DNA of 36,955 bases from Candidatus Kaiserbacteria bacterium RIFCSPHIGHO2_01_FULL_46_22. GTDB taxonomy: Bacteria; Patescibacteriota; Minisyncoccia; Phycocordibacterales; UBA918. Below are positions 33,743 through 36,955 of the stretch, piece by piece. The first letter of the stretch is position 1. Each line of letters opens with the position of its first letter. Made by a program: the position numbers and the translations under genes. The notes beneath the pieces are model-generated. The model saw only the letters and a program-made list of their open reading frames with translations, searched no databases and was not told where the DNA came from. The stretch spans positions 48,236-85,190 of the forward strand of contig MFKO01000008.1 of the NCBI GenBank assembly GCA_001779595.1, read 5' to 3'.

Positions 33743-35263
33743 ATGCCGATACCGGTATTACTCGGTGCGGCACTCGTAATTGGTCTTATTGTCGGTTACT
33801 ACGTAAGATACCGACACGCCCTGTCCCTGCGCTCCTCCTTGGAGCTGGACCTCAAGGAAAAAGCTCTTGATGCGGAAGAAAAAGCCCTCAAGATCATAGA
33901 AAAAGCAGAGAACAAGGCTGCCGAATTGGAAAAAGAGACTAAGGCCGAATGCCGTGCACTCGAAGAGAAGCTGGATAGTAAGGAAAACCGCCTAAATAAA
34001 CGCGAGGAATTACTTGATCAAAGACAAATCGACGTTGACTCACAGGTTGAAAACGTAAGAACAAAAATCGAGGAGGTAAAAAGCATCAAAGCCCGACTTG
34101 ATGATCATGCGATGGAGCTAGATCGTAAGTTAGAGGCCGTAGCTGGATTGTCTCGCGAGGAGGCTTATGCGCGTTTGACAGACGCTCTCCTGAAAGAGCG
34201 CTCTGAAGACCTTCTTGGTCGCCTGCGCAAACTCGAACAAGGCAACGAAGATCAATATGAAGAAAAGGCTCGCAATCTGTTACTTGCAGCTATTCATCGT
34301 GTCGGTAACTCCATGCCAGGCAACGTTATGACGGCCAGTGTCGAACTAACAAGCGACGACATCAAGGGAAAAGTGATCGGCAAGGAGGGCCGTAACGTTC
34401 GTGCATTTGAGCGATTAACCGGAGTTGATGTGCTCATTGATGATACTCCTGGTTACATCGTGCTCTCCTCTTTCGATCCGATCCGTCGTGAAATTGCCCG
34501 CGTAGCACTTGAGATGTTGCTCAAAGATGGCCGTATCCAACCTGCCAAAATTGAAGAAATGGTTGAAGAAGCCCGTAAGGAAGTCGCTAAAATGGTGCGC
34601 CAGATGGGCGACAAGGCTGCTTACGAAGCCGGAGTACAAGGTCTCCATCCTGACCTTATTACGATTCTTGGACGACTACATTTTAGAACTAGTTACGGGC
34701 AGAATGTGCTTTGGCATTCGGTTGAAATGGCTCATATCTCCGGCATTATTGCTAAGGAAATTGGCGCCGATGAAAGTGTTGCCCGTGCTGGCGCCCTTCT
34801 TCATGACATTGGCAAAACAGTCAGTCACGAAGTACAAGGCACTCACGTTGAGATCGGTATTCGCATCTTAGAAAAGTATGGTGTTGATGAAAAAGTGATC
34901 CTAGCAATGCGCGCTCACCATGAAGAGTATCCGTACGAAACCCCTGAGTCGATTATTGTGCAGGTAGCCGATTCACTTTCTGGTTCTCGTCCGGGAGCAC
35001 GCCGTGATTCAATCGAAAATTACATTAAACGCTTGTCTGAGTTGGAGTCGATTGCTACCCATCTACCTGGGGTTGAGAAAGCCTTCGCTATTGCCGCCGG
35101 CCGCGAGGTGCGTGTGTTAGTCAATCCAGAAAAACTTTCGGATTTAGAAATGCACGAGCTGGCACGCACTATTGCCACAAGCATCGAAGCGCAGTTGCGC
35201 TATCCGGGAGAAATCAAAGTACACGTTATTCGCGAGACACGAGTGATATCGTACGCAAGATAG
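33743..35263 (+). CDS. rny: Ribonuclease Y
   Basis: N-terminal TM, coiled-coil, KH (GKVIGKEGRNVRAFERLTGVDVLIDDTP), HD domain (HSVEMAHISGIIAKEIG...LLHDIGK). Confidence 0.97.
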   Translation: MPIPVLLGAALVIGLIVGYYVRYRHALSLRSSLELDLKEKALDAEEKALKIIEKAENKAAELEKETKAECRALEEKLDSKENRLNKREELLDQRQIDVDSQVENVRTKIEEVKSIKARLDDHAMELDRKLEAVAGLSREEAYARLTDALLKERSEDLLGRLRKLEQGNEDQYEEKARNLLLAAIHRVGNSMPGNVMTASVELTSDDIKGKVIGKEGRNVRAFERLTGVDVLIDDTPGYIVLSSFDPIRREIARVALEMLLKDGRIQPAKIEEMVEEARKEVAKMVRQMGDKAAYEAGVQGLHPDLITILGRLHFRTSYGQNVLWHSVEMAHISGIIAKEIGADESVARAGALLHDIGKTVSHEVQGTHVEIGIRILEKYGVDEKVILAMRAHHEEYPYETPESIIVQVADSLSGSRPGARRDSIENYIKRLSELESIATHLPGVEKAFAIAAGREVRVLVNPEKLSDLEMHELARTIATSIEAQLRYPGEIKVHVIRETRVISYAR

Positions 35264-35266
35264 CAG

Positions 35267-35300
35267 AAACAAAAAACCGCCACGTGGCGGTTTTTTGTTT
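35267..35300. terminator. Perfect 34-nt palindrome terminator
   Basis: AAACAAAAAACCGCCAC|GTGGCGGTTTTTTGTTT. Confidence 0.92.
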
Positions 35301-35872
35301 TATTCGGCCAATCGTGTGGCTACTACAAAAGTAGTGTAGTTATACTTAAGATCCTGAATGGACTCTTCTAAAATATCTAGACCATAAAGTTCAGCCGCGC
35401 GACGCGAGGCTATGACAGCAGTAGTATCGGCCAATTCGCCAGCGTGAAGCGCATTAGCAGCTGCTGCAGTGTCTTTAAACGGTAAAATGTCGGCGTTTGG
35501 CCAAACGCGCTTCAAGTACATCCGACATTGTTTCAATGCCTGATCGTGAGAACTGATGCTTTTAATATGCGAGGCGGTAATTCCCTTTTTGACGAGCAAA
35601 TTATGATGAACGTCTAATTCAAACATCTTTTCTATGACGAAACGATGCTTGGCCATAGCGTGCACCGCTTCTATCACAATCCCTCCGTTACTGTTTTCAA
35701 TTGGAAAAATACCTTTACCACACAAGCCTTTTTCAAGACCATCTAACACAGCCTCGGCAGTTACTAGAGTTAGTATTTCTGCATCAGATAAAGACTCTTT
35801 CTTTATATATTGTTCGCCGGCCATTTCCGAAAAACTGCCGCGATCACCCATCACTCCGATCTTGATAGACAT
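35300..35872 (-). CDS. pheA: Prephenate dehydratase-like protein without ACT domain
   Basis: IKIGVMGDRGSFSEMAGEQYI; GIFPIENSNGGIVIEAVHAM; NYTTFVVATR; ends at 190 aa. Confidence 0.82.
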   Translation of the reverse strand: MSIKIGVMGDRGSFSEMAGEQYIKKESLSDAEILTLVTAEAVLDGLEKGLCGKGIFPIENSNGGIVIEAVHAMAKHRFVIEKMFELDVHHNLLVKKGITASHIKSISSHDQALKQCRMYLKRVWPNADILPFKDTAAAANALHAGELADTTAVIASRRAAELYGLDILEESIQDLKYNYTTFVVATRLAE

Positions 35873-36021
35873 AGCCGAAAGATTAACATAGGTAGCCCTC
35901 TCACCAAAGAGAGAAATTTCAACACACTTTATTCGTTACACAAGTCGTTGCGACCGAAAAAGCTTGCTATATAATGCTTTGTAAGCCAACGAATAGGCAT
36001 TATCAACTCACATCACATTTT

Positions 36022-36294
36022 ATGAACAAGGCAGACATAATCAATAAAGTGCATGAGAAGATCGGCGTCACTAAAGCCGACGCTGAACGCGCTGTTGAGT
36101 GTATGATCGACTCCGTCGTTGATTCTCTCAAACGAGGACAGGAAGTTTCAATTGCTGGTCTTGGTATTTTCTCAGCCAAGATGCGCGAAGCCCGCACTGC
36201 TCGTAACCCTCGCACCGGCGAGTCTATCGAAGTACCGGCGATGCGCGTGCCAAAATTCCGCGCTGCAAAGGGACTTAAGGATGCGGTGAAGTAG
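36022..36294 (+). CDS. HU family DNA-binding protein
   Basis: MNKADIINKVHEKIGVTKADAERAVECMIDSVVDSLKRGQEVSIAGLGIFSAKMREARTARNPRTGESIEVPAMRVPKFRAAKGLKDAV. Confidence 0.96.
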   Translation: MNKADIINKVHEKIGVTKADAERAVECMIDSVVDSLKRGQEVSIAGLGIFSAKMREARTARNPRTGESIEVPAMRVPKFRAAKGLKDAVK

Positions 36295-36696: not shown

Positions 36697-36924
36697 ATGC
36701 GGGCAGGGGGAATCGTTCACCGCTCGCGATTATGGCTGTTCGCTTCGCTCCAATATTTTGGAATCGACCCAGAATAGCGGCTGTTTTATTTCGCTCCGCT
36801 TATAAAACAGGCTCGCGTTCTTGGTCGGTGTCTCCTCGTTTTTCTCGCAAGGGATGCGAGAAAAACATCGTCCGACGCTTCGATTCCCCACGCAAGAGCC
36901 TCAATGGCTCTTGCTCTGCCCGCA
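36697..36924. other. Multi-stem structured element / candidate ncRNA
   Basis: Outer stems TGCGGGCAG/CTGCCCGCA (36698-36706/36916-36924) and GGGGAATCG/CGATTCCCC (36707-36715/36881-36889) enclosing several hairpins. Confidence 0.55.
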
Positions 36925-36934
36925 CCGCATATGC

Positions 36935-36955
36935 AAAAAGCTCCCAGCTGGGAGC
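36935..36955. terminator. Palindromic terminator cut by window end
   Basis: AAAAAGCTCCCAG|CTGGGAGC..., same architecture as the other terminators. Confidence 0.6.

Follow-up and report, generated by a model that had tools for sequence, protein, structure and literature searches.

Genomic islands at the ssrA gene of Dehalococcoides are inserted at the T-loop, are flanked by a 20-bp direct repeat of the 3′ end, and form tandem arrays downstream of ssrA; they carry genes, many of them encoding a serine integrase (PMC3146451). T-loop insertion, the direct repeat of the 3′ end, and tandem arrays are shared with the units described here, which differ in being ~0.2 kb long and gene-less, in lying at many tRNA genes, and in having an extra inverted copy of the target. 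Integron cassette arrays also grow at one end, and attC sites fold as single-strand hairpins with conserved extra-helical features, as the present units may also do. However, the units have no cassette gene or integron integrase, and their target is the T-arm of a tRNA, not attI. In CTX-phi attP and IMEX, a stem folded from single-stranded DNA may be the recombination site and the host Xer may be the enzyme. In the present case, the target is a tRNA gene instead of dif, and no phage was found. Rickettsia palindromic elements, REP/BIME, and MITEs are small palindromic non-autonomous repeats. The units resemble them in these three properties but have target-specific tRNA arms and direct repeats, and no Y1 transposase was found in the two genomes compared most closely below (G000 and G002). 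Our literature search on tRNA-linked palindromes in CPR found nothing relevant, although its coverage was incomplete and does not prove absence.

The window, the whole 36,955-nt stretch that was analysed (G000:C8:48236-85190), belongs to a 647-kb genome in eight contigs (G000). The element near its end is probably a non-autonomous, gene-less mobile DNA cassette targeted to the T-loop/3′ end of tRNA and tmRNA genes. Such a cassette of ~200–260 bp would enter site-specifically at this position. Once integrated, it would replace the 3′ end of the tRNA with its own (a, the 3′ strand of the T-arm, and b, the acceptor strand) and would also contribute a terminator palindrome, the inverted copies b′ and a′, and a core with a three-way junction. 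On the far side, the 3′ end that the tRNA had originally would remain as a direct repeat. New units would enter beside the tRNA, and arrays would grow there and decay distally, as the comparison of relatives supports. At the level of sequence comparison, tRNA targeting, the direct repeat, the 3′-end replacement at tRNA-Gln, array growth at tRNA-Asp and tRNA-Ala, and DNA-like pairing are supported.

Structure of the window copy and its tRNA-Gly context

The palindromic element at 36697–36924 is real and folds far above chance. The folding energy of the minus strand was −108.6 kcal/mol with RNA parameters, compared with −67.0 ± 4.7 for shuffled sequences (z = −8.77, 0/200), and −66.8 with DNA parameters, compared with −33.7 ± 3.8 (z = −8.68). 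All the stems listed in a preliminary description of the window were found at the quoted positions when the coordinates were recomputed, but that set does not coincide with the conserved fold. GTCGG 36824/CCGAC 36872 is not the conserved P2, which on comparative support is formed by GTGTC 36828–36832 and GACGC 36874–36878, and CCGCT 36720/AGCGG 36776 lies outside the conserved structure. P3 is closed by GACC 36766–36769 and GGTC 36823–36826, and 96–99% of the cells in its helices 4–6 were paired. As the same description had stated, the element matched no RNA family (no Rfam covariance-model match in the whole window at gathering cut-offs, or in the element plus flanks at E ≤ 1), and no conserved ORF was seen in it.

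A palindromic terminator is indeed present at the window end, but it is only the centre of a much larger palindrome, of which the rest lies beyond the window in an N gap. Past this assembly gap lie the other half of the terminator and the tRNA-Gly gene, whose 5′ half (GCGGGCATAGTTTAGTGG.., minus strand) was found ~27–59 nt past the window end (locus L001). The gene was not called by ARAGORN because of the N gap, and since it sits just outside the window, neither the gene nor the origin of both outer arms as copies of its 3′ end could be seen in the preliminary description. On the minus strand, starting from tRNA-Gly, the order is terminator palindrome, inverted acceptor copy, hpA, inverted T-arm copy, and three-way-junction core; after the core come the direct T-arm copy, what is left of another unit, and finally the T-arm and acceptor end copied directly in full (Table 1). 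The region is composite, with 36719–36759 resembling the leftover 3′ end of an older element. The distal copy at 36698–36718 pairs with 36879–36889 and with 36916–36924, and the hpA loop is CTGC in many relatives.

Table 1. Features of the window copy and its tRNA-Gly context, in window coordinates
Feature	Position	Strand	Basis
Distal copy, in direct orientation, of the tRNA-Gly 3′ end (3′ strands of T-arm and acceptor, ..CGATTCCCCCTGCCCGCA)	36698..36718	-	Sequence; match to the tRNA-Gly(TCC) 3′ end in relatives G002/G008
Probably what remains of the 3′ end of an older unit with a different core subtype (..GGAGCGAAGCGAACAGCCATAATCGCGAGCGGTGAAC)	36719..36759	-	Similar 3′ end (..ACGAGCGGTGACCGA..) in a subtype-D unit, locus L020; by eye
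a, direct copy of the T-arm in the newest unit (TCGATTCC), P1 base with 36880-36887	36760..36767	-	Covarying helix 1
Core arm P3: GACC/GGTC, mismatched AGAA..TTCT helix, hairpin CTGTTTTAT..ATAAAACAG (36781-36810), GA-rich tip	36766..36826	-	Covarying helices 4-6
Core arm P2: GTGTC/GACGC stem bearing a 12-bp hairpin GTTTTTCTCGCA..TGCGAGAAAAAC (36838-36866)	36828..36878	-	Covarying helices 2-3
a′, inverted copy of the T-arm (minus strand: GGGGAATCGAA); antisense to T-stem and T-loop of the tRNA upstream	36879..36889	-	Such inverted copies are specific to the adjacent tRNA
Hairpin hpA, between acceptor copy and T-arm copy (GCAAGAGCC..GGCTCTTGC)	36892..36914	-	Same place in most copies
b′, inverted copy of the acceptor (minus strand: TGCGGGCAGA)	36915..36924	-	Reverse complement of the tRNA-Gly acceptor 3′ strand
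One half + centre (GCTCCCAGCTGGGAGC, 36940-36955) of the palindromic tRNA terminator	36925..36955	.	L001

At the orthologous tRNA-Gly (TCC) gene of G002 (L023), an older type-A unit is interrupted, within its inverted T-arm copy, by a nested insertion of a different element. Before the window element, at 33743–36294, ORFs resembling RNase Y (506 aa) and an HU-type DNA-binding protein were observed; these are unrelated to the element.

Distribution and association with tRNA and tmRNA genes

BLASTN gave three matches in the genome of the window, including the element itself, and copies were found in 11 of 38 genomes of the genus. A covariance model built from 13 cores gave seven matches in the same genome at E ≤ 0.1, four of them strong. 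With this model, core matches were detected in 40 of 49 family genomes (E ≤ 1e-3) and in 13 of 384 genomes sampled from the class (E ≤ 1e-6). Carriers in the named collection were nearly all Candidatus Kaiserbacteria and other Paceibacteria/Patescibacteria MAGs. The core occurs as subtypes A (that of the window), B, D, and S, which have a common outer architecture; B, D, and S were described by eye, and units were assigned to subtypes by eye. In addition, a typical type-A unit was observed on a short contig labelled Opitutia (L134, PXDN01000175.1) in a MAG of another phylum, a placement that is probably a binning error.

Units were found after the genes for tRNA-Gly, His, Phe, Ser, Thr, Arg, Lys, Leu, Val, Asp, Glu, Cys, and Pro and after tmRNA. 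Among 55 covariance-model matches, 41 lay within 160 nt 3′ of a tRNA or tmRNA gene on the same strand, mostly at 50–90 nt; the chance expectation for such proximity is ~0.5% per site. Six of the remaining 14 were at 217–253 nt, the distance expected of the second unit of an array, and in two others, L104 and the window copy, N gaps interfere. Units without a recognisable adjoining tRNA were L066, L013, L053, and L134. The L066 unit (G020:C1, ~199762–199888) lies 3′ of an apparent rpsI gene (ribosomal protein S9), and its ends resemble the flanks of the terminator of that gene, so targeting may not be strictly tRNA-bound.

Assembly gaps were observed at palindrome centres (L001 1857–1882, L017, L020, and L104). 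Since assemblies break in the palindromes, the unit counts are lower bounds, and tRNA genes beside units can be missed in such MAGs. If the proposed cassettes recombine as folded strands, this would help account for the breaking of some Kaiserbacteria assemblies at tRNA genes.

Occupancy was measured in three genomes, with tRNA flanks being sampled. In the genome of the window, 13 of 37 tRNA genes had an inverted copy (≥10 nt) of their own 3′ end at most 420 nt downstream; the window copy at tRNA-Gly TCC and a unit at tmRNA (L042) are additional to these. In G002, a tRNA-specific inverted copy of ≥10 nt was found at 12 of 37 tRNAs, and the ends of other tRNAs rarely match the inverted copies. 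A single inverted copy, at position 4, was found among the 31 tRNAs of G046, a member of the same family, and is likely due to chance. Approximately one-third of the tRNA genes in a streamlined 0.65-Mb genome apparently have a DNA cassette at the 3′ end, an unexpected load for reduced cells. These cassettes provide a testable handle on the mobile DNA of uncultured Patescibacteria.

Comparison of orthologous tRNA sites

Between the genome of the window and its close relative G002, the tRNA-fMet, Gln-CTG, Arg-TCT, and Tyr sites were occupied in one of the two only. The occupied tRNA-Gln ends in CCGGCAAC, and its distal repeat retains CCGGCAGC, the end found in the unoccupied relative. At tRNA-Asp and tRNA-Ala, a newer unit adjoins the tRNA, and the distal older terminator/unit matches that of the other species. 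Different cores were present at the same orthologous site at tRNA-Val and tRNA-Asp. Direct repeats of the tRNA 3′ end flanked the insert at L071 (27 bp, extending into the trailer), fMet, Gln, Asp, and L005; they were often decayed, and the distal copy was frequently just 8–10 nt. Units formed tandem arrays at L005 and L121. In the CSBr16_63 MAG, three tRNA-Ser genes had cores 94–96% identical and closely similar terminator segments, and the near-identity of these cores reflects recent spread. Counting against mobility, many sites were common to several species, indicating slow turnover, and neither an excised circle nor active transposition was observed. The site comparisons, direct repeats, and arrays are nevertheless characteristic of site-specific T-loop insertion, as known from the larger ssrA islands (PMC3146451).

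The inverted copies might instead be products of quasi-palindrome correction (template switching primed by hairpins) at the terminators of tRNAs, with the cores as mere passenger repeats. Under this process, a′, b′, and t′ would stay matched whatever the tRNA, and it is in line with near-perfect palindromes that extend from the loop of the terminator across the tRNA 3′ end as far as the T-loop. However, it leaves unexplained the spread of one core over many tRNAs, the direct repeats, and the replacement of the tRNA 3′ end, and we consider it quite unlikely as the whole explanation. Template switching may act alongside mobility, and correction of the palindromes in this way may help to keep the arms of the proposed cassette matched. 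Two observations count against the cassette explanation. At tRNA-fMet in G002, the acceptor part b′ mismatches its tRNA. At tRNA-Leu-TAG, the terminator and hpA vary while the core stays constant, which is not predicted by the insertion of a single unit.

Simple tandem duplication of the tRNA was rejected: where the T-loop is non-palindromic (tRNA-Ser, L006), a′ copies the T-arm in inverted and not in direct orientation. Two candidate empty sites were also discarded: the flanks of tRNA-Ser-CGA were not homologous, and at tRNA-Phe, G002 retains a remnant of the acceptor copy, indicating deletion. At tRNA-Thr TGT in the genome of the window (L075), the 3′ half of the gene from the anticodon arm on is directly repeated shortly downstream with no element between, and this repeat looks like the scar of another tRNA-targeted insertion.

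Apparent DNA-level pairing and candidate enzymes

Among 41 distinct sequences, double changes were found in 31 of 35 pairs, and 94.7% of cells pair; cells with double changes numbered 295, compared with 77 in shuffles. Folding and covariation are present, and the fold may be that of a recombination site. In RNA under selection, A-C mismatches are avoided and G-U pairs are tolerated. The core helices of 29 distinct best-scoring sequences contained 15 G-T and 8 A-C mismatches, whereas the acceptor and T stems of tRNAs from two of these genomes contained 48 and 0, respectively (Fisher p ~5e-5); with an alignment fitted to the structure and decayed copies included, these counts are evidence and not proof. 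Since the core helices have no G-U bias, it is apparently as DNA that their pairing is maintained, and selection on folded DNA is favoured.

These data bear on the possibility that the element is a structured non-coding RNA co-transcribed with tRNAs, for example one that acts in processing or regulation and whose acceptor stem, resembling that of a tRNA, could be recognised by RNase P. The strong covariation, the conserved unpaired bases, a b′/b stem identical to the tRNA acceptor stem, and the association with tRNA and tmRNA genes are consistent with such an RNA. By contrast, the terminator palindrome separates the tRNA from the core, and pairing goes on beyond its T-run. The lack of G-U bias, the absence of the element at all but possibly one of the 31 tRNAs of G046, and the differing cores at the orthologous Val and Asp sites also argue against this explanation, which we consider unlikely. 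The preliminary interpretation as a structured RNA or mobile repeat is therefore partly supported: its second half is borne out by copies in relatives, strong covariation, presence or absence at orthologous tRNA genes, and tandem arrays, and its first half is disfavoured by the mismatch spectrum.

Under the cassette explanation, the most likely recombining form would be a folded single DNA strand, since a hairpin is formed by a/a′ together with the core, which is conserved as Watson-Crick pairing in DNA; the a/a′ stem would imitate the double-stranded tRNA target, in the manner of the attC sites of integrons and of CTX-phi attP. We propose this recombination step tentatively. The intermediate would be circular or single-stranded, and the recombinase would be either the only Xer that each genome has or an enzyme provided in trans. 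With somewhat more reserve, the whole could represent a previously undescribed CPR mobile system, in which gene-less cassettes with tRNA-matched arms enter tRNA genes by recombination of folded single DNA strands and rebuild the 3′ end and terminator, driven by the only Xer or by another enzyme. If the cassettes do recombine as folded strands, they would provide another natural case of integron-like recombination at a single-strand site.

A retro-type mobility, in which an RNA with the tRNA 3′ end as its terminus undergoes reverse transcription and then insertion at the T-loop, would agree with copies that begin at the T-loop, and judging from its sequence a unit could fold as a rod-like circle. 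However, reverse transcriptase, present in 11 of 48 genomes, was not found in the element-bearing G000, G002, G036, and G015, and the mismatch spectrum is DNA-like; this route is very improbable. Y1 transposase was found in neither G000 nor G002. Y1 transposase, reverse transcriptase, and serine recombinase were each missing from several element-rich genomes, and G002 lacked all three. With no consistent link to element-bearing genomes, these three were rejected as the mover. A phage origin was likewise rejected, as two core patterns scanned over IMG/VR gave no match.

No dedicated integrase was found, and the units (~0.2–0.26 kb) contain no ORF able to encode one. The enzyme may be Xer, something supplied in trans, or an unrecognised protein. 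No integron integrase was detected among the recombinases tested from G000, G002, G008, and G042, which scored 71–142 bits compared with the 265 required and looked XerC/D-like. One tyrosine recombinase was present in nearly every family genome, and those examined were XerC/D-like. Across the family, this lone Xer falls into three sequence types (L202, L203, L204, L206, and L146), which do not track element content; the type in G000 and G002 scored far under the curated cut-offs for XerC/XerD.
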